Source: a virus
DNA: 34,286 bases
Virus record (IMG/VR): IMGVR_UViG_3300042484_000337
Coordinates: 1-34,286 of that record
Direction: 5' to 3' (one strand)
Notes under the pieces: model-generated
What the model saw: the letters and a program-made list of their open reading frames with translations, nothing else
Database searches by the model: none
Told to the model about the DNA's origin: nothing
Shown: positions 4,491 to 16,950 of the stretch, in pieces
Position numbering within the stretch: position 1 is the stretch's first letter
Layout of the letters: each line of letters opens with the position of its first letter
Program-made: the position numbers and the translations under genes

Positions 4491-4528
4491 TGTTACAGTT
4501 GTGTTAATTCTTTGTTACAGTTGTGTTA
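4491..4528. repeat. Direct repeat TGTTACAGTTGTGTTA, two copies 22 bp apart
   Basis: TGTTACAGTTGTGTTA occurs at 4491-4506 and again at 4513-4528. The 22-bp period is about two helical turns, so a dimeric regulator could occupy both on one DNA face. The repeat sits directly upstream of the leftward operon. Confidence 0.7.
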
Positions 4529-4575
4529 CAATTTGAGTGTTTTGTTATGGGTGTTGCGTTTTACAAAAACTCTCG

Positions 4576-4583
4576 TAGGGAAC
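4576..4583 (+). promoter_or_regulatory. TAGGGAAC gene-boundary motif, copy 3 (rightward)
   Basis: The top strand reads CGTAGGGAACAGCATG. It is the only copy that points into the rightward arm, about 145 bases before its first gene. Confidence 0.35.
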
Positions 4584-4637
4584 AGCATGTTTTGAGTATG
4601 GGGGGTCAGGGGGGACTCAACCTGTTGGTTTCGTCCC

Positions 4638-4665
4638 GTTAACGCCAGTGCAACGGGGCGTTAAC
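4638..4665. repeat. Perfect 9-bp inverted repeat (GTTAACGCC / GGCGTTAAC)
   Basis: The two 9-base arms are separated by 10 bases. The repeat lies just upstream of the TATAAT box of the rightward arm, so an operator is plausible. As RNA it would form a hairpin, but no U-run follows. Confidence 0.6.
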
Positions 4666-4678
4666 CGAAAGATTCTAT

Positions 4679-4691
4679 TATACAATATAAT
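4679..4691 (+). promoter_or_regulatory. Probable promoter -10 region of the rightward arm
   Basis: A consensus TATAAT lies at 4686-4691 within TATACAATATAAT, 36 bases before the first rightward start codon. No good -35 box is seen (TTAACC at 4661-4666 is poorly matched and 19 bases away), so activation by a bound protein is possible. The TATACAATA part recurs at 5567-5575. Confidence 0.5.
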
Positions 4692-4727
4692 ACACTGGAA
4701 TGTGTTTAGCGTGGACAAGGATGGGTT

Positions 4728-4853
4728 ATGGAAGTGTTGAGAACAACCGTTGTAGTAGTAGGGTCAGTTTCTTTGACCTTAACAGTATTAGGTCTACTTA
4801 TTAGAATACTGTTTAACGCTGTAGATGATTGGACACAAAATGGGTTTGACTGA
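4728..4853 (+). CDS. Mini membrane protein, 41 aa
   Basis: This is a short gene: ATG at 4728, stop TGA at 4851-4853. It is preceded by AAGG with 7-base spacing. Residues about 7-29 (TVVVVGSVSLTLTVLGLLIR) form one clear hydrophobic helix, followed by a polar tail with DDWTQNG. It is the first gene of the rightward arm. A single-helix protein here could be an early host-takeover or superinfection protein, or a holin-type protein, but nothing in the sequence decides this. Confidence 0.55.
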   Translation: MEVLRTTVVVVGSVSLTLTVLGLLIRILFNAVDDWTQNGFD

Positions 4854-4905
4854 TGAAGAGATGGTTTTGTTGAAACTGTTGAAGAAACCAAAACCAAAGA
4901 AGTAA
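4840..4905 (+). CDS. Possible 21-aa overlapping mini-gene
   Basis: A frame from ATG 4840 to TAA 4903-4905 encodes a short amphipathic, lysine-rich peptide (MGLTDEEMVLLKLLKKPKPK plus one Lys). It overlaps the end of the membrane mini-gene, and its stop overlaps the next start (TAATG), as with real neighbours. It may be a leader for coupling or a real peptide. Its size makes this call weak. Confidence 0.3.
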   Translation: MGLTDEEMVLLKLLKKPKPKK

Positions 4906-5300
4906 TGGGTTACACTAAGCCAGAGTTGCGTGCTAGAATTGTGTCAGCCGTTAAGGCTGGCACCGCTGGTGGTAACGCTGGGCAGTGGTCTGCCCGTAAA
5001 GCCCAAATAGTAGCGCAACGCTACAAGAAGGCTGGAGGTGGGTACAGTGGACCTAAGACCAGCAAACAGCAATCGTTGAGTAAGTGGACATCTGAGAAGT
5101 GGACTACCAAATCTGGTAAACCATCCACACAGGGACCTAAGGCTACAGGTGAACGGTATTTGCCTAAGAAGGCTATAAAGGCTTTGTCGTCAGCAGAGTA
5201 TGCGGCTACGACTAAGAAGAAGCGTGAGGGAACTAAGTCTGGTGAACAGTTCGTTAAGCAACCTAAGAAGGTTGCCAATAAAACTAAAGGTTATAGGTAA
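4905..5300 (+). CDS. DUF5872-like small basic protein
   Basis: This 131-aa, lysine-rich protein starts MGYTKPELRARIVSAVKAG, continues with GQWSARKAQIVAQRYKKAGGGY, SLSKWTSEKWTTKSGKPS and RYLPKKAIKALS, and ends in a basic tail (GEQFVKQPKKV). This order is characteristic of DUF5872, a family shared by phages and large eukaryotic DNA viruses, with unknown function. The high positive charge suggests nucleic-acid binding. It overlaps the next gene by one base (TAATG), which also encodes a small basic protein. Confidence 0.8.
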   Translation: MGYTKPELRARIVSAVKAGTAGGNAGQWSARKAQIVAQRYKKAGGGYSGPKTSKQQSLSKWTSEKWTTKSGKPSTQGPKATGERYLPKKAIKALSSAEYAATTKKKREGTKSGEQFVKQPKKVANKTKGYR

Positions 5301-5563
5301 TGGCTAAGACAGCAGCGTGGACAAGAAAAGAAGGCAAGAACCCAGCAGGTGGTTTAAACGCTAAAGGTCGTGCATCCTATAAGGCTCAAACAGGTGGCAC
5401 ATTGAAACCACCTGTCACCGCTAAGGCTGCAAAGAAATCACCTAAGAAAGCGGCACGGCGTAAATCATTCTGTGCAAGAATGGGCGGCATGGAGGGACCT
5501 ATGAAGGACTCCAAAGGACGACCAACTCGCAAAGCATTGGCTTTGCGTAAATGGGACTGTTAG
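5300..5563 (+). CDS. DUF6321-like small basic protein
   Basis: This 87-aa protein starts AAWTRKEGKNPAGGLNAKGR, has a variable Ala/Lys linker (AKAAKKSPKKAARR) and ends KSFCARMGGMEGPMKDSKGR followed by TRKALALRKWDC. These two conserved blocks are typical of DUF6321, found in phages and giant viruses with no known activity. The two cysteines and basic surface would fit DNA or RNA binding. It is translationally coupled to the DUF5872-like gene, a pairing that suggests joint function. Confidence 0.8.
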   Translation: MAKTAAWTRKEGKNPAGGLNAKGRASYKAQTGGTLKPPVTAKAAKKSPKKAARRKSFCARMGGMEGPMKDSKGRPTRKALALRKWDC

Positions 5564-5566
5564 TTA

Positions 5567-5586
5567 TATACAATACTATATAAAAT
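5567..5586 (+). promoter_or_regulatory. AT-rich promoter-like box (TATACAATACTATATAAAAT)
   Basis: It lies just after the DUF6321-like gene and shares TATACAATA with the box before the first rightward gene. Spacing and orientation fit a second rightward promoter driving the non-coding region and the mini-gene cluster. Confidence 0.4.
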
Positions 5587-5772
5587 AAGGGTCCCCCACA
5601 ATTAGACCCCCACCCCATGTGACCTTAGTCATAGCATGGACAAGTTGTATAACCCCCAAAAACTGGTACCCCTCTCTGGCTCTGATGCAATAGAGTACCA
5701 GACTGACCGAGCCGTAGCCCCCCCCATGCCCCCCCACCCGCATTGGAGTCGTGAATGGTGTCACAATCGTGC

Positions 5773-5809
5773 GGGAACACGGGTATCTGTGCGCCCACAT
5801 ACAGTTCCC
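5773..5809 (+). other. Extended hairpin in the non-coding region
   Basis: The outer stem is GGGAAC/GTTCCC and the inner stem is GTAT-c-TGTG paired with CACATAC, with a short loop. This would form a stable RNA stem or a cruciform. No U-run follows, so it is not a plain terminator. Confidence 0.5.
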
Positions 5810-5891
5810 AGCCAAAAACGGTGCGCTAATCGCAGGCGGGCGGGACTGTACGAAGCAGACCTGTTTCTCGGGTTTCTATATGCGTGGGGAC

Positions 5892-5909
5892 GGGTGTGCG
5901 CGTCAAAGA
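5892..5909 (+). repeat. GGGTGT-N4-GTCAAAGA element, copy 1
   Basis: N4 is GCGC. The element is followed directly by TAGGAGG, a good ribosome-binding sequence, but only a five-codon frame (MPHSH) starts after it at 5930. Confidence 0.65.
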
Positions 5910-5969
5910 TAGGAGGCAACTGTTCGGCGATGCCACACAGTCACTAACGCTGATGATGTGTGTGTGGCT

Positions 5970-5987
5970 GGGTGTGCATGTCAAAGA
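5970..5987 (+). repeat. GGGTGT-N4-GTCAAAGA element, copy 2
   Basis: N4 is GCAT. It lies 78 bases after copy 1. GTGTGCAT could pair with ATGC-c-ACAC at 5930-5938, making a long-loop hairpin. Confidence 0.65.
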
Positions 5988-6041
5988 GTTGTTGTGTCGT
6001 TCGGCGTTGCCGAGTGATACAGTGTTCATGCCTGCGTTGGT

Positions 6042-6059
6042 GGGTGTGAGCGTCAAAGA
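6042..6059 (+). repeat. GGGTGT-N4-GTCAAAGA element, copy 3
   Basis: N4 is GAGC. It lies 72 bases after copy 2 and 85 bases before the next start codon. No clear pairing partner is seen upstream. Confidence 0.65.
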
Positions 6060-6144
6060 GGTAGAGTGGTGGTTGCGACATGGTGTTGCGACATTAGGTG
6101 TTCGTGAACGAACAGCCACACAAGTGATAGTCTGGGAGGACATC

Positions 6145-6396
6145 ATGGCACGCAAAGCAAAAACAGTAGAAATCGTTAATGTCATTGGGCGTTACACGAA
6201 GCATGACAAGTGGTGGGTTGTTGCGTTTGATGATGCAACGGAAGTGTACGAGACTGGTACGGTTGTGACCGTGAAGCCACAGGAAAAGGATGCCCACAAG
6301 GTAATCATTCAGGTTCTCAAGGCTTCGTCAATCGTGGTTTCGGACGAGGAGTTGCCAACCTTGTATTACACCTACACGAAGGTGTCTAGCAAGTAG
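6145..6396 (+). CDS. Small phage protein of unknown function, 83 aa
   Basis: The start ATG at 6145 is chosen because GGGAGGA lies eight bases upstream and the protein then begins MARKAKTVEIVNVIGRYTK. The rest alternates beta-type segments (KWWVVAFDDATEVYE, TVVTVKPQ, KVIIQVLKASSIVV), suggesting a small beta-barrel fold. I do not recognise the family. It is the first coding gene after the structured region and is followed by a strong hairpin, so it may be its own transcription unit. Confidence 0.7.
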   Translation: MARKAKTVEIVNVIGRYTKHDKWWVVAFDDATEVYETGTVVTVKPQEKDAHKVIIQVLKASSIVVSDEELPTLYYTYTKVSSK

Positions 6397-6413
6397 GTAG
6401 ACGGTTGGTTGAG

Positions 6414-6445
6414 GGTGCACAGGTTAATCCCCTGACTTGTGCACC
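6414..6445 (+). terminator. Hairpin after the 83-aa gene
   Basis: GGTGCACAGGT pairs with ACTTGTGCACC, giving 11 base pairs with one G-T wobble and a 10-base loop. A second small palindrome, GCACAC-c-GTGTGC, follows at 6451-6463. There is no U-run, so it may be an attenuator or RNA-stability element rather than a full terminator. Confidence 0.45.
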
Positions 6446-6489
6446 TGATTGCACACCGTGTGCAGATAGGATATGGCTGGGAGGCTAAT

Positions 6490-6636
6490 ATGAATAATGA
6501 TAAGCAAGAGGTGCAGTTGTTACCTAAGGGCGTGTACTGTTGTCCACGCTGTGATAAGCAGTTTGAGGTGTTTGTGCGTGTTGTTGAGGTGGCTTGTACT
6601 CAGCACGGACAGATGACAAAGAAAGGAGCAAAGTAA
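6490..6636 (+). CDS. Small zinc-ribbon-like protein, 48 aa
   Basis: ATG 6490 is preceded by GGGAGG at 5-base spacing, which is better than the earlier in-frame ATG at 6439 that lies in a hairpin region. The protein has C-C-P-R-C followed by a beta segment (FEVFVRVVEVAC) and C-x2-H, so a small metal-binding ribbon is likely. The stop overlaps the next start (TAATG). The role is unknown. Such mini-ribbons in phage early regions often bind nucleic acid or host proteins. Confidence 0.65.
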   Translation: MNNDKQEVQLLPKGVYCCPRCDKQFEVFVRVVEVACTQHGQMTKKGAK

Positions 6637-6806
6637 TGGAATATCAGGAGGGTATGAAAGTCAGGTTCATTAAGGGTCACCGTTCGGGTCAGGTGTGGAC
6701 TGTGTTGGAGCATTATTGGGGTTCTGATAATGTTTTGGTCATGCCTGAAAAGGGTTCTGGTCGGTTCGCTGTGTGTGTTACAACTAATATGCTTGAGGAG
6801 GCGTAA
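6636..6806 (+). CDS. Small beta-rich protein, 56 aa
   Basis: It starts at ATG 6636, which overlaps the upstream stop, with AAAGGAGC as ribosome binding site. The sequence MKVRFIKGHRSGQVWTVLEH, then DNVLVMPEKG and RFAVCVTTNMLEEA, suggests a small SH3-like barrel with two or three strands around glycine turns. I do not recognise a family. It ends in GAGGAGG, which serves the next mini-gene. Confidence 0.65.
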   Translation: MEYQEGMKVRFIKGHRSGQVWTVLEHYWGSDNVLVMPEKGSGRFAVCVTTNMLEEA

Positions 6807-6892
6807 TGGATGAGTATAATTTAGTGTTGATGATTATGGGCTTCGGCTTAGTGTGTTTTTTATTCGGATACGGTATGGGAGGTAGCAAATGA
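6806..6892 (+). CDS. Mini membrane protein, 28 aa
   Basis: The frame from ATG 6806 to TGA 6890-6892 encodes MDEYNLVLMIMGFGLVCFLF followed by GYGMGGSK. It is a single hydrophobic helix with an acidic outside end and a short basic tail. It has a full GAGGAGG ribosome binding site and overlaps both neighbours (TAATG and ATGA), which is the best evidence that it is real. The function is unknown. It could be a membrane-targeting peptide or a host-modulating peptide. Confidence 0.6.
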   Translation: MDEYNLVLMIMGFGLVCFLFGYGMGGSK

Positions 6893-7089
6893 TGAGTCGT
6901 AGAGATTATCAGGTATTGGCAAGGTGCATAGAGATAGTTGGAGATAACCACAGAGGTCGGGAGGGTGAGATAGCGTTGGGTGAACTGGTGGAGGATTTGT
7001 GTAAGCGTTTGCACCTAGAGAATCCTCGGTTTGATACGGAGAAGTTTGTCACGAAGTGTAATGTGTCGTTACCACCGAAGGAGGCGTGA
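6889..7089 (+). CDS. Small phage protein, 66 aa
   Basis: The start at 6889 overlaps the upstream stop (ATGA), with GGGAGG six bases away. A second ATG at 6892 is also possible. The protein is mainly helical (RDYQVLARCIEIVGD, GEIALGELVEDLCKRLHLE), then FDTEKFVTKCNVSLPPKEA. I do not recognise the family. It ends with AAGGAGG, which drives the next gene. Confidence 0.65.
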   Translation: MMSRRDYQVLARCIEIVGDNHRGREGEIALGELVEDLCKRLHLENPRFDTEKFVTKCNVSLPPKEA

Positions 7090-7319
7090 TGTTGGTTTGG
7101 GTTAAGACTAGTTATGGTTGGGAGGCTGATGCACCTTATATGGAGGGTAGTTATATTGTGCAAGGCGCAGTAGGCGAGGGGTTTGTTTTGACAGCGTTTT
7201 GGAATTGTGTTAGCAATGGTGGACAAAATCAGATGGAGTTTGAGTGTCCGATTGTGTTTAAGTCGTTGCGTACTGCCAAGGATTGGTGTCAGCGTGATTA
7301 TGATAGTGAGTGTGCATAA
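7089..7319 (+). CDS. Small phage protein, 76 aa
   Basis: The start is taken at ATG 7089, which overlaps the upstream stop (TGATG) and has AGGAGG four bases upstream. The GTG at 7086 would be too close. The protein is rich in aromatic residues (VWVKTSYGWEA, FWNCVSNGGQ) with three cysteines and ends LRTAKDWCQRDYDSECA. I do not recognise it. It closes the chain of five coupled mini-genes. Confidence 0.65.
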   Translation: MLVWVKTSYGWEADAPYMEGSYIVQGAVGEGFVLTAFWNCVSNGGQNQMEFECPIVFKSLRTAKDWCQRDYDSECA

Positions 7320-7324
7320 TAATA

Positions 7325-7356
7325 GGTTTCCGTTGGCAATCCTGCCAACGGATTAG
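7325..7356 (+). promoter_or_regulatory. Conserved leader hairpin element, copy 1
   Basis: GGTTTC leads into the perfect 9-bp stem CCGTTGGCA/TGCCAACGG (7330-7351), followed by GATTAG. A related element lies at 7868-7901. Just after it, ATGAAC/GTTCAT (7358-7375) forms a 6-bp hairpin whose loop carries TGGGAG, the ribosome binding site of the next gene. This looks like translation control. Confidence 0.55.
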
Positions 7357-7376
7357 CATGAACTGGGAGGTTCATT

Positions 7377-7787
7377 ATGAGTAAGAAAATATCGGTTAAG
7401 GTTAGTCGTATTAAATTGTTGGAACAACTTAAAAGTTCTTTGCGTAAAGCAACAGCAATTAGTAATGATTACGATAAGGCTACTGTTGAGCATGATAAGG
7501 AAGTTAAGGCTATTCATGCGAAGGTTGTAAAAAACTTGGGTAAGGGTAAGGTAATTGAGTGTCGTGATAGCACTGGTCATTACGAACGGGTGAACAAGGT
7601 GGTTGAGTACACGATTACTGTGACTTTTCCTGATACCTTTTTCGTTAAGCCTAAGTCACCTGAGTATCCTGAAATGTTAAACAAGTTTGAGCGTTCAGAG
7701 TTGGAGCAAATCATTAAAATGCTTGAGTTGTGTGATGATGAGTTTGTTTCTACAGGCGTTTATGGTAATGTAGCCCGATACATTTAA
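7377..7787 (+). CDS. Phage protein of unknown function, 136 aa
   Basis: It starts at ATG 7377 after a GGGAGG presented in a hairpin loop. The N-terminal half is charged and helical (KVSRIKLLEQLKSSLRKA, then KEVKAIHAKVVKNLGKGKV). The C-terminal half has beta segments (NKVVEYTITVTFPDTFFV) and a last helix (SELEQIIKMLELCDDEFV). No known domain is recognised. It sits between two structured leaders, so its translation is probably controlled separately from the mini-gene cluster. Confidence 0.7.
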   Translation: MSKKISVKVSRIKLLEQLKSSLRKATAISNDYDKATVEHDKEVKAIHAKVVKNLGKGKVIECRDSTGHYERVNKVVEYTITVTFPDTFFVKPKSPEYPEMLNKFERSELEQIIKMLELCDDEFVSTGVYGNVARYI

Positions 7788-7846
7788 TCGGGTCACTGTG
7801 TGGGGGTTCGTAGCCCTCACATAGTACAATTTACGCACACCTGTAT

Positions 7847-7864
7847 GGGTGTGTGCGTCAAAGA
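7847..7864 (+). repeat. GGGTGT-N4-GTCAAAGA element, copy 4
   Basis: N4 is GTGC. The element begins in the loop of the 7833-7858 hairpin and its GTGTGCGT forms the right arm; CAAAGA continues past the stem. Confidence 0.65.
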
Positions 7865-7867
7865 TAA

Positions 7868-7901
7868 GGTTTCGGCTTGGCAATTCCGCCATGCCGATTA
7901 G
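7868..7901 (+). promoter_or_regulatory. Conserved leader hairpin element, copy 2
   Basis: It matches the element at 7325-7356: GGTTTC, then C/G-G, TTGGCAAT, a C-rich loop, GCCA and CGATTAG or GGATTAG. Stem bases differ between copies but mostly still pair (C-G-T-T against A-A-C-G; C-G-G-C against G-C-C-G). Confidence 0.55.
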
Positions 7902-7927
7902 TGCCGAAAGGCAGGAGGAAATACATT

Positions 7928-9241
7928 ATGGCTGGGAAAGCGTTAATTGTTTTATCTGTGAATTGTGCAGATAAATCGGCGAAAGTAAAATTCTCGTTAG
8001 AGTCGGAACGGGAGTACGATTATGCTCTGGTACGACTTGACCGTAACACACTCATTAAGGTTGTTGGGTTGTTGGGTCATAAGTTTGTTGGCAAGTCTCC
8101 ATTGTCGTACACACAGTACGAGTTGAAGAATATGGCTGAGAAACTTATGACAGACCGAACGGATGTTGTGACGAGCAAGATTGTTGCTACTAGACCGACT
8201 CCTAGTGTTCCAGCACCTACGGTGACTGTCACACCTACTGTCCATGCTAAACCAGCAGGGATTGAGGATGCTTTACGGAATGTTATCACCGAGGCTATGT
8301 CGGCTTACACCGAGAATGGCGTGGACAAAGATGTGGTCACACAGATAGTGAATGAGGCTATCGGTCATCATGTGGCTGAAACACAGAAGTCTATTGACGC
8401 TTTGACACGGATTATCGCCGAGTCTAGACCTGAGGTGAAACATATTACGCTTACTGGTGGTGTTGTCCGTAAGATTGAGGGTCGTACACACTTCCTGTTT
8501 GATAAGGTGTTGCGTGTCGTTGATGCAGGGTTATCGCCTTGGATTACGGGGTCGGCTGGTGTGGGTAAAACTATGCTTGCCGAACAGATTGCTACAGCCT
8601 TAGGGTTGGAGTATAGCCCTGAGTCGTTCTGTTCGCAGTCATCTAAGGCTGAGGTTAAAGGCTATAAGGACGGTCACGGATTGTACCAGTCAGTGGACTT
8701 CCGTAAGCGTTTTGAGGACGGTGGTGTCTATCTGTTGGATGAGATTGACGCTGCGAACCCAAACATTCTGCTTACGCTTAACAGTGCACTCAGTAATGGT
8801 TGGATGATGTTTCCTGATGGCAAGGTTAAACGCCACGAGAAGTTCGTGGCGATAGCGTCAGCGAACACTTACGGCAACGGTGCTACAGCAGAGTATGTTG
8901 GTAGGCAGGTGATTGACGGCTCTACACTTAATAGGTTCGTCAAGTTTGATATGCCTATTGACGAGATTATGGAGGCTGGTATCGTGAATGACCTATCGGT
9001 GGACGCTACTAGTGGTCGTACATGGTTGGACATTGTTCGTAAGGCACGAGCCAATGTCGCCTCTAGTGGACTCAAGGTTATCATCTCGCCTCGTGACTCG
9101 TATCATGGTGCGAAGTTGCTTAATGCAGGGTTCACCTTTCAGGAATGTGTGCCTATGACATTCGGTTCAGGTATGAAGTCTGAACAGTATGCTAAGGTCA
9201 TGGCTGGCATTACTATGCCTGCTGGTGGTGCTAAAGTTTAA
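7928..9241 (+). CDS. MoxR/CobS-type AAA+ ATPase
   Basis: The start is ATG 7928, after GCAGGAGGAAATACATT. Residues 1-165 are family-variable and include a Pro/Thr/Val linker (about 88-108). The AAA+ core follows: Walker A GSAGVGKT at 208-215, Walker B VYLLDEID at 267-274, sensor-1-like ASANT at 310-314, and TLNRF with a candidate arginine at 336. MoxR and CobS ATPases remodel protein complexes and act with a VWA-domain partner. The next gene encodes a VWA-like protein, which supports that pairing. Phage roles are poorly known. The structured leader suggests regulated expression. Confidence 0.88.
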   Translation: MAGKALIVLSVNCADKSAKVKFSLESEREYDYALVRLDRNTLIKVVGLLGHKFVGKSPLSYTQYELKNMAEKLMTDRTDVVTSKIVATRPTPSVPAPTVTVTPTVHAKPAGIEDALRNVITEAMSAYTENGVDKDVVTQIVNEAIGHHVAETQKSIDALTRIIAESRPEVKHITLTGGVVRKIEGRTHFLFDKVLRVVDAGLSPWITGSAGVGKTMLAEQIATALGLEYSPESFCSQSSKAEVKGYKDGHGLYQSVDFRKRFEDGGVYLLDEIDAANPNILLTLNSALSNGWMMFPDGKVKRHEKFVAIASANTYGNGATAEYVGRQVIDGSTLNRFVKFDMPIDEIMEAGIVNDLSVDATSGRTWLDIVRKARANVASSGLKVIISPRDSYHGAKLLNAGFTFQECVPMTFGSGMKSEQYAKVMAGITMPAGGAKV

Positions 9242-9253
9242 TGCTTGGATGTG

Positions 9254-9292
9254 GGTACACTCACCTACATTCCCAGCGTGGGTGGGTGTACC
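9254..9292 (+). other. Hairpin between the AAA+ and VWA-like genes
   Basis: GGTACACTCACC pairs with GGTGGGTGTACC, giving 12 base pairs with one G-T wobble and a 15-base loop. The right arm contains the start of a GGGTGT-N4-GTCAAAGA element. It may be a processing or attenuation site. Confidence 0.5.
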
Positions 9293-9301
9293 TGTCAAAG
9301 A
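9284..9301 (+). repeat. GGGTGT-N4-GTCAAAGA element, copy 5
   Basis: N4 is ACCT. The GTCAAAGA part is outside the hairpin and lies 26 bases before the next start codon, whose ribosome binding site is AGGAGG. Confidence 0.65.
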
Positions 9302-9327
9302 TAGCCAACAACAACTAGGAGGTAGTT

Positions 9328-10158
9328 ATGATTACGGAAGTTATAGATAAGGTTCATGTTGATGAGTTTGAGTCGTTAGGTGAGGCGTTACATTACGCTA
9401 AGGCTAATGACAATAGGCGTTCATCGGACGCTCAGCGTGATACAGATTGGGCTGGTTCACGGGACTTAAACACTGCTGTCCAACTGGGGTTGGACGGTTG
9501 GCATGATATTCGTCCTGATGTTGATGCAATGTTTAGTCGTATGGAGGAGCAAATAAATATGTCGCTTGGTGATGTGTTTGAGATGCGTTACGATTACAGT
9601 GGCGATAGTGTGGACATTGACCGTTTCCTTATGGGTGACCCTGAACACATGATGGATTATGAGACTGTTCCTTCAGGTAGAATGGGGCGTGTCGTTCGTG
9701 TTTTGGTTAATGGTTCTGCTAGTGCGTTTGTTTCTCCCGAACTTATTAGACAGCGTGGTGTTCTAGCAGTAGCGTTGATTGATGTGTTATCTAAGTTGGG
9801 TGTTGGTGTAGAGTTGTGGTTGGAGTCTGCTACAGAGTATAATGACAAATTGCACTCACAACTTATCAAAATACATTCATCGGAGGAGCGTTTAGATATT
9901 GACAACCTGATGTTCAGTATGGCTCATCCGTCCATGCTTAGACGAGTCGGGTTCAGTATTCTGGAGCGTACCAGTTGGGCACCTGCTAAACAGTGCGCTC
10001 AACTTGGTGCAGGTTATGGTCGTCCTCACAATTTAACTCAAGGTAAGCGCATTGGTGCTGATGTTGAGATTGACAAGTTACAGAACGCAACAGGTGACCC
10101 TGTTGTGGACGGTGTTGCTTACATTATGTCCACCATTAAAGGATTGGATTTACTGTAA
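9328..10158 (+). CDS. VWA-like partner of the AAA+ ATPase (degenerate metal site)
   Basis: This 276-aa protein starts at ATG 9328 after AGGAGGTAGTT. The N-terminal part has RDTDWAGSRDLNTAVQLGLDGW, resembling phage proteins I recall under DUF7192. At 121-165, RVVRVLVNGSASAF is followed by a helix (GVLAVALIDVLSKLG) and VELWLE, which is the strand-helix-strand of a VWA fold. The usual metal-binding D-x-S-x-S is replaced by N-G-S-A-S at 128-132. A late segment (IDNLMFSMAHPSMLRRVGFSIL) fits the remaining core. It follows the MoxR-type ATPase, so a two-part chaperone is likely. Fold assignment is by pattern only. Confidence 0.65.
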   Translation: MITEVIDKVHVDEFESLGEALHYAKANDNRRSSDAQRDTDWAGSRDLNTAVQLGLDGWHDIRPDVDAMFSRMEEQINMSLGDVFEMRYDYSGDSVDIDRFLMGDPEHMMDYETVPSGRMGRVVRVLVNGSASAFVSPELIRQRGVLAVALIDVLSKLGVGVELWLESATEYNDKLHSQLIKIHSSEERLDIDNLMFSMAHPSMLRRVGFSILERTSWAPAKQCAQLGAGYGRPHNLTQGKRIGADVEIDKLQNATGDPVVDGVAYIMSTIKGLDLL

Positions 10159-10189
10159 GCACAAACAGTGCCTACGCTGAGATAGTAGG

Positions 10190-10222
10190 ACGGGGGTTGG
10201 ACGATAAAACTCCAGCCCCCGT
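10190..10222 (+). terminator. Probable terminator after the AAA+/VWA-like unit
   Basis: ACGGGGGTTGGA pairs with TCCAGCCCCCGT, giving 12 base pairs with one wobble and a 9-base loop, followed by TAATTGATAT. It is GC-rich and well placed, but the following T-run is poor. Confidence 0.6.
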
Positions 10223-10257
10223 TAATTGATATCCCAAACAACAATATGGAGGTAGTT

Positions 10258-10866
10258 ATGAGTAACAAAGTAAAAGGATTATTGTTAAACGCTGGTGTTG
10301 GTGGAAGTATAGATACGATTACTGTTGATGGTTTAGAATCAATTCAAGGTTATGTTGGTGGTACGATTGATGCTGTCAGGGCTGAAGTTGCTGACACTAT
10401 TTGTGCTGTCGGTTATGTGCATGATGAGGGATTGATACTGGATTTGGAGATGAATTGGTTGGCTAGTGCATTGTTCTCACGAGAGATTCGTGGTAATGTT
10501 GTGTTGGTTAATGGATACAATAAGGATAACGAATATGATGGTGATAATCATGAGTTCCCTGATGTATTCATTAGGTATATGAAAACTTCTTTCCTCAAGA
10601 AAGTTGCTGATGCTTACAATGAATCACAAATGATTTCTGCCATGCTACAGTATTCTTTGGACACAGGATTGATTAGCAAAGAAGGAATTGATAATCTTAT
10701 GGAAGAATTAGGCGAGGCTATACTGGCAGACGATGAAGTAGGGTTGGAAGATTTGTCTGCAAGGATTGAAGAAATTATGGCTAAACTTGATAATGCCATG
10801 AGTGAAGAAGCGTCAAGTAAATTGATTGATGAAATCTATGAGTTTCTAGATAAGGAGGTTGAGTAA
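10258..10866 (+). CDS. DUF3846-like phage protein
   Basis: The start is ATG 10258, because GGAGG lies at 10249-10253 with 4-5-base spacing; an earlier in-frame ATG overlaps this site. Residues about 17-82 (ESIQGYVGGTIDAVRAE, then LILDLEMNWLASALF and IRGNVVLVNGYN) follow the DUF3846 layout: a Q-x-x-V-G-G-x-I-D block, a strand, an N-containing helix, then I-x-G-x-V-x-V. The C-terminal 100 residues are acidic and helical, possibly coiled coil. DUF3846 occurs in phage and plasmid accessory regions. Its role is not settled. Confidence 0.65.
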   Translation: MSNKVKGLLLNAGVGGSIDTITVDGLESIQGYVGGTIDAVRAEVADTICAVGYVHDEGLILDLEMNWLASALFSREIRGNVVLVNGYNKDNEYDGDNHEFPDVFIRYMKTSFLKKVADAYNESQMISAMLQYSLDTGLISKEGIDNLMEELGEAILADDEVGLEDLSARIEEIMAKLDNAMSEEASSKLIDEIYEFLDKEVE

Positions 10867-11069
10867 TGGAGTTCATTGAAACACCTATGTGTACCGTGTG
10901 TGGTGCAACTACGCTTATGTATGTGGATGAAATAGCATACTCTAGGTGGCAAGGTCAGGAAATCCTTATACAGCAAGCGTTTCCCGAGATGACTGCTGGT
11001 GAACGAGAGTTACTGAAAACAGGGTTCCATCCTGCGTGTTGGGATTCACTATTTAGCGAGGAGGAATAA
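10866..11069 (+). CDS. Small putative zinc-binding protein, 67 aa
   Basis: It starts at ATG 10866, overlapping the upstream stop (TAATG), with AAGGAGG as binding site. It has C-T-V-C-G near the N-terminus and H-P-A-C-W near the C-terminus, a layout that can hold one zinc. The middle is helical (GQEILIQQAFPEMTAGEREL). The role is unknown. Confidence 0.65.
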   Translation: MEFIETPMCTVCGATTLMYVDEIAYSRWQGQEILIQQAFPEMTAGERELLKTGFHPACWDSLFSEEE

Positions 11070-11632
11070 TGAGTGACACATTCATTAAGGTTGATGCCGT
11101 TTATGGTATGTGGCAAGGTGAACGAATATGTGAAATCATGCAATACACCCGTGAAATGGGACATGTTTGGACTACCGACACCATGTTGAATTACTTTGAC
11201 AAACTACTAGAATGTTACGACTTGTATCGTAGCACTAATGGTTATGTATCAGAATCGTTTGACGAAATAGAACCGTTCAAGACTGAGACTGGAAGTAATT
11301 TTAATCCATTGAAACATTGGAAAAACATAAGGGACTCTGTAACAGATTACTGCATACAGTTCCCTGAGCGGGAACCGTATGACATTATAGATAAACTTGG
11401 TCTAACGGTAGAAGAGTTTCAATGTGCTGTATCTGTGAACAAGAACAAAACTATAATGAACGAAACGGGATTTCGTTCATTTAGTTATGCTTGTTTGGAA
11501 GATAACCCAAACTTTGCCAAGATTGGTAGAGACTACGGTACTGGAGTAAACACTATGGTTTTTTACAAGAAACTCTTCAGGGCAATAAAGTTGGCAAGGA
11601 CAGAAAAGATGATTGATAGTGGTAAGATATAA
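11069..11632 (+). CDS. Phage protein of unknown function, 187 aa
   Basis: It starts at ATG 11069, overlapping the upstream stop, after GAGGAGGAA. The sequence is mixed helical with WQGERICEIMQYTREMGHVW, a tyrosine-rich segment (LLECYDLYRSTNGY), LTVEEFQCAVSVNKNKTIMN and a basic end (FYKKLFRAIKLARTEKMI). The last two thirds could hold a helix-turn-helix (DIIDKLGLTVEEFQCAVSVN). I do not recognise a family. Confidence 0.7.
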   Translation: MSDTFIKVDAVYGMWQGERICEIMQYTREMGHVWTTDTMLNYFDKLLECYDLYRSTNGYVSESFDEIEPFKTETGSNFNPLKHWKNIRDSVTDYCIQFPEREPYDIIDKLGLTVEEFQCAVSVNKNKTIMNETGFRSFSYACLEDNPNFAKIGRDYGTGVNTMVFYKKLFRAIKLARTEKMIDSGKI

Positions 11633-11721
11633 TGAAACTATCGGTTTCGGTACTTAGTACCTCAACCTTACTGTCCATGCTATCTAGTCTATTAGAAAAG
11701 AGAATAAATGAAAATAGATAA
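11632..11721 (+). CDS. Possible 29-aa mini-gene
   Basis: The frame starts at ATG 11632, overlapping the upstream stop (TAATG), and ends at 11719-11721, inside the nuclease gene. It encodes a Ser/Leu-rich peptide, MKLSVSVLSTSTLLSMLSSL, with a charged end. It fills an otherwise empty 75-base gap and could couple translation of the nuclease. No clear ribosome binding site supports it. Confidence 0.25.
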   Translation: MKLSVSVLSTSTLLSMLSSLLEKRINENR

Positions 11722-12514
11722 TGTTAATAAGATAGTGTATGTTAGACAGTCTTGGTTAAATGATATGGTTATCTGTCCCGAAAGAGCCAGACTTGGTGTT
11801 GTTAGACCAGAGTTCCGTAGTGGTAGCGATGCTACCATTATTGGTACTGCTGTTCATGCTGGTATTGAATCAGTGTTGGATGGTAGGTCATCAGAGTTTG
11901 GTGATATGTTGAAGGTTGTCGGTGATGAGTATGCTACACTGGCTGCGTTACCTCATAAGGTAACAAACATTGACCAAGAGAAAATCCCAGAATATCTAGA
12001 GGCTATGTCATTAGCGTTTTACGACGACATTCTACCAAAAGTAGAATTAGGAGGCAAGGTTGAACATTATTTTAAGGTTCCTTTGGGTGTTACTATTCAG
12101 GACTATTCTGTGTGGCTTGAGGGCACGATGGACTACATCGCACCCAGCGGTCTTATATGGGACTGGAAAACATCATCCCGTGCTTATTATATCAAGGACA
12201 AACAGAAATCCGCTATCCAGCCTACGGTCTATGGTTATGCGGCGAAGTATGAGGGGCTAGCAAATGGTGATATTACCGATTTTAATTATGGGATTATGGT
12301 TCGTAGTAATCCAAGTAAGTCTCAAATTGGACATATCACCCGAACAGAAAGTCATTATAATTGGCTCAAGTACTTTGTTCGTGGCGCTGTCGGCTCTTGC
12401 CTTAAGGTGGGTACCGATAGCGAGTGGTTTATGAATGACAGCAGTACGCTATGCTCGTCATCATGGTGTTCGTATTGGAGTATCTGTAAAGGTGCTTTCA
12501 ATACGAATGATTGA
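11708..12514 (+). CDS. RecB/Cas4-type PD-(D/E)XK nuclease with a four-cysteine cluster
   Basis: This 268-aa protein carries the nuclease core: GTAVH with H50, VEH (E119), GTMDY (D142), IWDWKTSS with D152 and K154, and the helix QPTVYGYAA (Q171, Y175). C23 (VICPERA) and C249, C254 and C260 near the C-terminus fit the iron-sulphur staple of Cas4/AddB-type enzymes, though the usual C-x2-C spacing is C-x4-C here. Such nucleases process DNA ends in recombination and replication. It leads the replication block. No Cas1, Cas2 or CRISPR array is nearby, so this is not an adaptation Cas4. Confidence 0.82.
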   Translation: MKIDNVNKIVYVRQSWLNDMVICPERARLGVVRPEFRSGSDATIIGTAVHAGIESVLDGRSSEFGDMLKVVGDEYATLAALPHKVTNIDQEKIPEYLEAMSLAFYDDILPKVELGGKVEHYFKVPLGVTIQDYSVWLEGTMDYIAPSGLIWDWKTSSRAYYIKDKQKSAIQPTVYGYAAKYEGLANGDITDFNYGIMVRSNPSKSQIGHITRTESHYNWLKYFVRGAVGSCLKVGTDSEWFMNDSSTLCSSSWCSYWSICKGAFNTND

Positions 12515-15039: not shown

Positions 15040-15209
15040 GCATAGAACAATCAAAGAAACGCAATGCACGGCATGGCGCATACAAGTTCTGGACTTCAAT
15101 TCCTAAAGCATCCGACATCAAAATTACCAAGGCTGATGGAACTATTACATATCAGAAAGTAAACAACAAGGTTTATGCGGCTAAGGTTATTCGTAAGGCA
15201 AAACCATGA
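15036..15209 (+). CDS. Small basic protein, 57 aa
   Basis: The frame runs from ATG 15036, overlapping the primase stop (ATGA), to TGA 15207-15209, overlapping the next start (ATGA). The protein is strongly basic: SIEQSKKRNARHGAYKFW, then DIKITKADGTITYQKV and KVIRKAKP. Both overlaps support it being real. It may bind nucleic acid and be coupled to the primase. No family is recognised. Confidence 0.65.
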   Translation: MSIEQSKKRNARHGAYKFWTSIPKASDIKITKADGTITYQKVNNKVYAAKVIRKAKP

Positions 15210-15787
15210 CAACAATTTTAGCAATCCAAGGTGACGGTTACGCTGCCATAGGTTCAGACTCCCAGTGGACCGATGATTATGGGCGTGTCGGGAAAATGGC
15301 GCAATCAAAAGTTGTGACATTGGGCAGATACCTAGTTGGTATCGCTGGCGACACGAGGGGAGCAAACATTGTGCAACACATGTTTGTTCCTCCAGCGTTA
15401 CCTGTCAAACTTTCAGGAAACAAACTAACAAACCTTATGGTAACACAATTCGTTCCCGCATTAAGAGACTGCCTAGAAAAGAATGGTGCAGGTCGCCCAC
15501 AATATGATGACCAGCCCGCACAATCAGCGAACGACATCCTAGTGTGCGCTAACGGTGTTATCTACCAAATTGATACAGACTATGGCACTGAGATAGATTC
15601 ATGTAATCTTTACGCTATAGGTTCTGGAGCGCATTATGGTTTGGGTGCATTGCAAGCGTTAATCGGTGCTAAGAAACCTTCCATTAATACTGCTAAGCAA
15701 ATCATTCTTAAATCGTTAAACATATCAGCGAAGTTTGATAGCGGTAGCGGTGCACCATTCTACACATTCTTGCAGGTTGCTAAGTAA
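15206..15787 (+). CDS. Proteasome-beta/HslV-like Ntn hydrolase
   Basis: This 193-aa protein starts MTTILAIQGDGYAAIGSDSQ. Removal of Met would leave Thr as the N-terminal nucleophile, with D18 at the place of the family Asp17 and K30 or K35 as the family Lys33. A later YAIGSGAHYGLGAL matches the beta-subunit motif G-S-G-x2-Y-x2-G-A-L. Family members are threonine proteases that form rings. No propeptide is present, as in HslV. No phage-coded ATPase partner of HslU type is seen, although the AAA+ gene is in the same operon direction. Protease activity is inferred. Confidence 0.8.
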   Translation: MTTILAIQGDGYAAIGSDSQWTDDYGRVGKMAQSKVVTLGRYLVGIAGDTRGANIVQHMFVPPALPVKLSGNKLTNLMVTQFVPALRDCLEKNGAGRPQYDDQPAQSANDILVCANGVIYQIDTDYGTEIDSCNLYAIGSGAHYGLGALQALIGAKKPSINTAKQIILKSLNISAKFDSGSGAPFYTFLQVAK

Positions 15788-16131: not shown

Positions 16132-16598
16132 ACCAATCCGATTATGATATTGCACCAAAACAATATGACTTCCACACAGATTTACGCTACGGTAAGAAAG
16201 GTGAGAAACTTGTTGAAGAGTTTCTTGAAACCCTTAGCGGTGGTGCGTTTGAAGTTAAGACAGACCGTTATCGTAATGGTCGTATGGTATTGGAAATGGA
16301 ACACAATCCCCGCAGACAAACAGACGAAACAGGTAAAGCGTTATGGAAAGCATCAGGCTTAGCAATTACCAAGGCACGCTGGTGGGTGTATGTTTATACG
16401 CTTGACGGTTCGTTTGTTATTGTGGATGTTCCACGCATTAAAAGATATCTTAAAGCCAACAAAGAAAGATTCAACCCCAAGAAATACCACGACTTTGCAC
16501 ACAGGAGCAGTAACCCATCCAAAGGATATCTATTACAACCAGAAGATGTAATGGACATGATGATTAACCCAGCATATGACACAGTACCCAAGTTATAA
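16083..16598 (+). CDS. Putative PD-(D/E)XK-like nuclease
   Basis: This protein has up to 171 aa. LRYGKKGEKLVEEFL is followed by FEVKTDRYRNGRMVLEMEH, giving an E-x-K core with a downstream acid, as in many small restriction-fold nucleases. An aromatic strand (KARWWVYVYTLDGSFVIVDV) and a basic helix (KRYLKANKERFNPKKY) follow. The start is uncertain: ATG 16083 lies inside rusA, while GTG 16128 would overlap the rusA stop (GTGA) but lacks a good ribosome binding site. Function is inferred from the fold pattern and the position beside RusA. Confidence 0.55.
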   Translation: MAGRQASETIDSNKRVNQSDYDIAPKQYDFHTDLRYGKKGEKLVEEFLETLSGGAFEVKTDRYRNGRMVLEMEHNPRRQTDETGKALWKASGLAITKARWWVYVYTLDGSFVIVDVPRIKRYLKANKERFNPKKYHDFAHRSSNPSKGYLLQPEDVMDMMINPAYDTVPKL

Positions 16599-16950
16599 CA
16601 ACCCACTATCAGACGGCAAGGACATTCCCGATGTAAGGGAATACGACCCAGATAGCACAGAGTGGCTTATGATGCCACATCAAATTGTTGTGCCCTTGGT
16701 TGACAACGATGAACTCATTGAACTTGTGCGCGACCTTCTGTCCACGCTAGATGACATTGACCAACAGATGATACAATTGATTTACTACGAAAGAAAAACA
16801 TTTCAAGAAGCAGCACAAATCATAGGAATACGAGCCAAGTCTCATGCTTGGCGCAAAACAAAAGCAGCAATGAAAAAACTGGAAGCCACATTACGAAGTG
16901 ATGTGGGACTAATGGAACTACTGGAGAAAAAATATGACATCCATAACTAG
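16576..16950 (+). CDS. Sigma-region-4-like helix-turn-helix protein
   Basis: This 124-aa protein has, at about 55-105, LLSTLDDIDQQMIQLIYYER and TFQEAAQIIGIRAKSHAWRK, then KAAMKKLEATLR. This is the region-4 pattern of ECF-type sigma factors: first helix ending in R, then the A-A-Q-x-x-G turn and the recognition helix. No region 2 is present, so it is not a complete sigma factor. It may be a late-gene regulator acting at the leftward operons. It starts inside the preceding gene, with 23 bases of overlap. Confidence 0.65.
   Translation: MTQYPSYNNPLSDGKDIPDVREYDPDSTEWLMMPHQIVVPLVDNDELIELVRDLLSTLDDIDQQMIQLIYYERKTFQEAAQIIGIRAKSHAWRKTKAAMKKLEATLRSDVGLMELLEKKYDIHN

Follow-up and report, generated by a model that had tools for sequence, protein, structure and literature searches.

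A directional, lineage-specific repeated word is a putative cis-regulatory site upstream of predicted early genes in a group of phages

Genome organization

The phage genome analyzed here is a 34,286-base IMG/VR record, the whole of which is referred to as the window, and it raises the question of what a short repeated sequence, GGGTGT-N4-GTCAAAGA, does among the non-structural genes. The structural and packaging genes are on the minus strand at both ends of the genome, with the portal, scaffold and major head proteins encoded at one end and the small terminase subunit at the other. A plus-strand arm from ~4.9 to 17.8 kb includes genes coding for AAA+, DUF7192, PD-(D/E)XK nuclease, DnaB-like helicase, AEP primase, HslV-like peptidase and RusA proteins, and because of this gene content we refer to it as the putative early arm. 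The genes that bear on the repeat are as follows.

6145–6396, plus strand: gene for an 83-aa protein that follows the tandem copies; the family is kept in clades A–D and is a candidate reader of the word
7928–9241, plus strand: AAA+ (AAA_5, MoxR-like) ATPase gene, downstream of copy 4
9328–10158, plus strand: DUF7192/phrog_1909 protein gene, downstream of copy 5
15206–15787, plus strand: HslV/proteasome-like peptidase gene of the putative early arm
16576–16950, plus strand: gene for a sigma-70 region 4 protein (124 aa; PF04545 above cut-off), conserved over the phage group

A small beta barrel is predicted for the 83-aa protein, for which a fold search gave no informative match, and the sigma-70 region 4 protein is a possible late-gene activator.

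Sequence and distribution of the repeats

An exact search of the whole window returns five matches to GGGTGT-N4-GTCAAAGA, all on the plus strand, with none on the other strand and none for a reversed control pattern. This bears out the earlier note, which had reported five copies on one strand with identical fixed positions and an N4 that differs each time.

5892–5909, plus strand: copy 1, GGGTGTGCGCGTCAAAGA; N4 is GCGC; first of three in tandem, without a conserved stem
5970–5987, plus strand: copy 2, GGGTGTGCATGTCAAAGA; N4 is GCAT; second tandem copy
6042–6059, plus strand: copy 3, GGGTGTGAGCGTCAAAGA; N4 is GAGC; third tandem copy, with a stem to 6024–6035 that is kept in relatives
7847–7864, plus strand: copy 4, GGGTGTGTGCGTCAAAGA; N4 is GTGC; 63 nt 5' of the AAA+ start codon, with a stem between 7833–7840 and 7851–7858
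9284–9301, plus strand: copy 5, GGGTGTACCTGTCAAAGA; N4 is ACCT; 26 nt 5' of the DUF7192 start codon

By simple arithmetic ~0.0003 exact matches to the 14 fixed bases are expected in the window, counting both strands, and five exact copies thus cannot be chance. With a 28-position weight matrix the five copies score 34–43 bits and all other sites in the window −4 bits or less (maxima on shuffled sequence range from −0.5 to −11), so there are no decayed copies scoring above chance; the distribution is all-or-none, with the five sites spanning 3.4 kb. The two gene-proximal copies had been described as preceding AAA+ and VWA-like genes, and their positions are as described, with the VWA identity replaced by a match of the second gene to DUF7192/phrog_1909. 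Separately, the sequence GAGTGTGCATAATAATAGG at 7308–7326 matches the position of an extra intact copy in a relative (L139:1269), with the same 136-aa gene family downstream, and is probably a lost copy of the element.

Copies 1–3 lie inside an open frame (5884–6396) with spacings divisible by three. A coding repeat (GVxVK[DE]) is rejected because the tandem spacings in relatives (e.g. 74, 76, 79) disrupt the frame that these copies share. From the end of the core to the nearest start codon there are 9–93 nt for gene-proximal copies and up to 248 nt for tandem copies, and the genes after the nearest copies have a ribosome-binding site, which the core abuts in the relative L009.

Conservation in related phages

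A search with the AAA+ protein yielded 11 loci in relatives; all sequences are metagenomic, and some contigs may nearly duplicate each other or the window (the AAA+ protein of L006 is 100% identical). In the loci L006, L007, L009 and L011–L014 each of the five corresponding places has a GTCAAAGA copy, and the matched AAA+ segment is 73–100% identical; L010 (the same contig as L139) has copies wherever the contig reaches, plus one extra before the next upstream gene. A collection scan added tandem copies in L023, L098, L127 and L193. In all, about a dozen contigs besides the window carry the word at the corresponding sites, with three tandem copies before the 83-aa gene, one before the AAA+ gene and one before the DUF7192 gene. 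Across 35 copies GGG and GTCAAAGA are invariant, partly by selection, as GTCAAAGA was the search anchor for this set. Copy 4 remains with its downstream gene where the upstream gene differs (L009, L140 and L142), and at L139:1269 the word overlaps the stop codon of the upstream gene.

The earlier note had proposed a covariance-model search of relatives. Pooled sites gave no base pair, and the model therefore searched sequence only; the copies that it found are all of clade A. Built from 23 copies, the model finds 45 copies at E < 1e-6 in 329 kb, oriented with the early genes, and a single other match (E = 2.4). Together with the relatives' loci, this clearly supports the proposal of a phage-specific element ahead of homologous genes. 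No similar phage DNA was found in the annotated collection, and no description of this element in the literature.

Iterons bound by a replication initiator protein are a highly improbable explanation of the repeats. In their favor, the tandem copies number three and occupy a long non-coding stretch, in an arm that also contains the DnaB-like helicase and AEP primase genes, but single copies are fixed before two distant genes in relatives and the tandem spacing of 72–79 bp is long for iterons.

Lineage-specific spelling in distant clades

More distant relatives have the same genes with differently spelled but similarly built words, which were found by eye and from repeated 8-mers in one or two phages per clade.

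Clade B (L144/L145): GTGTGTGCG-N5-GTGCGTCTTTGAT, also written GTGTGTGCG-N5-GTGCGTCTTTGATRG; four copies in L144
Clade C (L138 and L146): GTA-N4-TACGGCGGTGTCAAA with an AAAGAT-like tail; nine copies over two phages
Clade D (L147): TGTGTGT-N4-GTGTGACANAAAG; four copies

All of these words have a G/T-rich part on the sense strand, a short variable middle and then an A/T-rich part. The two-part arrangement around a short spacer of fixed length is common to clades B, C and D, in other letters. Since relatives keep the word at the same genes and distant ones respell it there, the element is judged from these comparisons to be a putative directional, lineage-specific cis-regulatory site.

In each of the four clades the gene that directly follows the tandem copies codes for a member of a single protein family, with identities to the window's 83-aa protein of 65–66% within clade A and 24–37% between clades. 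This divergence would fit, and does not prove, a reader that changed alongside the word, and comparable divergence is seen in many other genes of these phages. The sigma-70 region 4 protein is an unlikely reader because the clades read have almost the same recognition helix (AKSHAWRKTKSA and close variants) and differ in the word.

RNA structure around the copies

The earlier note had placed N4 in a stem with GTCAAAGA left single-stranded, and N4 does pair with an upstream arm at copies 4 and 5, as claimed. Folding compared with shuffled upstream sequence gives mean z values of −0.7, −2.4, −1.8, −1.1 and −3.4 for copies 1–5; the corresponding values for the words of clades B, C and D are −1.6, −0.3 and −0.3. 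The stem at copy 5 is convincing.

9255–9291, plus strand: copy 5 hairpin, in which 9255–9268 pairs with 9278–9291; it overlaps copy 5

In six sequences all 84 of 84 cells of this stem are paired, with two double-compensatory pairs, no broken pair, and seven pairs with one-sided changes that keep a standard pair in every sequence. If the partner is shifted by at most three columns, pairing falls to 29–63%; the count of double changes alone is matched in 21 of 500 shuffles of the six sequences. At copy 3, 13 pairs are kept in most of 10 sequences (RNAalifold) with one-sided changes only. Neither copy 1 nor L139:1269 has a convincing stem by folding (no consensus stem at copy 1), and a pooled alignment of the sites has no consensus base pair. 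The proposed arrangement thus describes copy 5 and in part copies 2–4, and does not extend to copy 1, L139:1269, or copy 4 of L139 and L009, where the stem extends into GTCA itself; compensatory changes, which had been asked of the stems, are found at copy 5 and not at copy 3. What is conserved is a linear word and not a common fold. Moreover, L138 keeps the copy 5 hairpin although the core is lost, and the hairpin is thus at least partly a separate feature.

These stems give some weight to a possible reading as an RNA leader element, in which the word would be read in the mRNA. Its G/U-rich part would supply the 3' strand of a hairpin, leaving GUCAAAGA as a tail to which a phage RNA-binding protein or some other factor binds, and the early modules would be controlled through their translation, decay or elongation. 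Several features are consistent with it: the completely paired copy 5 stem, the largely kept copy 3 stem, the better-than-shuffled folding of copies 2, 3 and 5, the location of copies on the sense strand of untranslated leaders (abutting the ribosome-binding site in L009), and the presence of other clearly covarying leader RNAs in the same phages. Against it, there is no structure common to the sites, with none at copy 1 or L139:1269 and none significant in clades C and D, and the hairpin and the word are separable in L138. We regard it as less probable than not, with the weight that it does have coming from the stems at copies 5 and 3 and from the plain use of structured leaders by these phages.

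Other structured leader elements

One of these leaders is a hairpin with the loop CAATTC (GCAATTCCGC), which is often downstream of the element.

7873–7896, plus strand: leader hairpin with the GCAATTCCGC loop, sequence CGGCTTGGCAATTCCGCCATGCCG, after copy 4

The same hairpin is at 7330–7351 and in L137, L138, L009, L139, L140, L142, L146 and L147. Its apex, GCAATTC[CG]GC, is near-invariant, and seven of the nine pairs are changed on both sides among 10 sequences; with covariation far stronger than that of the repeated word, it is a much better structured-RNA candidate.

Another structure, a 52-nt three-way-junction-like RNA (GGACGAAATAGC...GGGCAGTGCAATTCTGCTATCGTCC), is present 5' of the AAA+ gene in L149, L150, L151, L152, L154, L156 and L159; six of its 18 pairs are changed on both sides and none is broken in six sequences, and it has no Rfam match at gathering score (L151 and L159). 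A hairpin at 7797–7825 with the loop GGGTTCGTAG, before the AAA+ gene, is kept in L137, L138, L139 and L146. Before the 83-aa gene, the sequence ATTAGGTGTTCGTGAACGAACAGCCA at 6093–6118 is almost identical to ATTAGATGTCCGTGAACGGACAGCCA before the AAA+ gene in distant relatives, and a sub-threshold Rfam S15-leader match covers 6081–6198. In the window from 4500 to 12000 nothing reaches the Rfam gathering score, this S15 leader being the best (25.4 of 39.5 bits).

Comparison with known phage repeats

The element is best called a lineage-specific repeated regulatory word of phages, a known sort, for which the ESAS of Cluster K appear to be the nearest known kind, with SAS and the Cluster A stoperators also among the closest. 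ESAS in Cluster K mycobacteriophages are imperfect inverted repeats with a short spacer and a 17-bp arm consensus (PMC3203893, PMC11373665); they contain SigA-like −35 and −10 hexamers and were later described as holding putative promoters (PMC11373665). Both are oriented intergenic repeats before selected non-structural genes, with imperfect inverted arms (at some copies here), a consensus that varies by subcluster and retention in front of the same gene families. They differ in sequence; in the hexamers, of which the −10 was scored here, with TANNNT in at most 4 of 27 copies at any single offset; in the conservation of both arms in ESAS and of the right arm only here; and in RNA pairing, for which ESAS arms had little support and copy 5 has it. 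Inverted arms of the ESAS type are present at copies 2–5 and absent at copy 1 and L139:1269, and with this and the −10 result we do not claim ESAS membership.

SAS, also of Cluster K, are typically 3–7 bp before the start codon and contain AGGAG (PMC3203893). The likeness is of a short asymmetric word, in a single orientation, outside genes and on the early genome side; SAS membership is rejected, as the nearest core here ends 9–93 nt before the start and there is no AGGAG or ribosome-binding site in the word.

Cluster A stoperators, of which the TipsytheTRex genome has 26 operator/stoperator sites with a known repressor (PMC9283540), are likewise asymmetric directional words with a variable middle, the two halves being contacted in stoperators. 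Here there are five all-or-none sites in early leaders, with no repressor recognized, and membership is rejected on spread, with the five sites in 3.4 kb and the next-best match under the shuffled maxima. The asymmetric site is accordingly improbable as an operator at which a phage repressor stops initiation or elongation: direction, variable middle and lineage-specific spelling would suit that role, and the clustering of the sites, compared with ~26 genome-wide, would not. The stoperator system includes a cognate two-domain immunity repressor encoded by the phage; Pfam and PHROGs scans of the gene products, which leave small ORFs unassigned, recognized neither a repressor nor an integrase family.

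Proposed function

Of the earlier choice between a regulatory RNA element and a protein-binding box, the RNA part is thus partly supported and a DNA box is at least as likely. We slightly favor a site read in DNA over an RNA leader element, namely a directional, lineage-specific promoter-like or activator site at the head of early modules (probability about 0.42); what the sequences show is the exact conservation, direction, positions and clade-specific spelling of the word and the lack of a common RNA fold, from which we infer that it is read in DNA, that it serves as a promoter or activator and that a phage factor is its reader. The word is tied to the downstream gene, has its nearest copy ending 9–93 nt from the start, is tripled at the first gene and at several sites is followed by a covarying hairpin, and it may therefore be read as the start of a transcription module with its leader.

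In the mechanism that we propose, a phage-encoded or phage-altered factor would bind the G/T-rich half and the GTCAAAGA half of the element, the centers of which are ~11 bp apart (one helical turn) with N4 between, and would start or boost transcription of the module directly downstream. At the 5' end of the transcript there would be a short leader, folded at several of the sites, and then the ribosome-binding site; expression of the first early gene (the 83-aa protein) would depend on the three tandem copies, and that of the AAA+ and DUF7192 units on the single copies. Tandem early promoters exist in other phages, and the triple copy before the first early gene resembles them.

In favor of this DNA-level site count the exact one-strand copies at equivalent places in relatives, the conservation of the linear word without a consensus pair, its attachment to the downstream gene, the two-part layout in the other clades, the triple copy, and the covarying leader hairpin downstream of the word at several sites. 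Counting against it, the copy 5 stem and the kept copy 3 stem suggest at least some selection at the RNA level, the sole recognized transcription protein, that with sigma-70 region 4, keeps its recognition helix as the word changes, and neither a TANNNT hexamer conserved at a fixed offset nor a phage RNA polymerase was found. A host SigA promoter is rejected, there being no fixed −10 hexamer. A phage RNA polymerase was sought with PF00940, which has no match in 15 records; this search is weak, as the control genomes were silent too. An N4-like virion RNA polymerase is rejected, as a 1732-aa ORF has no polymerase match among Pfam, PHROGs and PDB sequences, and so is an N4-type hairpin promoter, since the hairpin is missing at copy 1 and no virion RNA polymerase is recognized.

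A more far-reaching proposal, which we consider rather unlikely, is that the word is private and rapidly re-spelled, and is read by an unrecognized phage factor as a new transcription start or RNA leader signal, with relatives having replaced it at all sites together. Four lineages with the same early genes and different spellings would imply a reader that changed with the word. Such phages have no recognized RNA polymerase or repressor, and finding the reader would provide a compact specificity system with which they control their early genes; the clades offer a test of how a regulatory code gets replaced at several sites at once.
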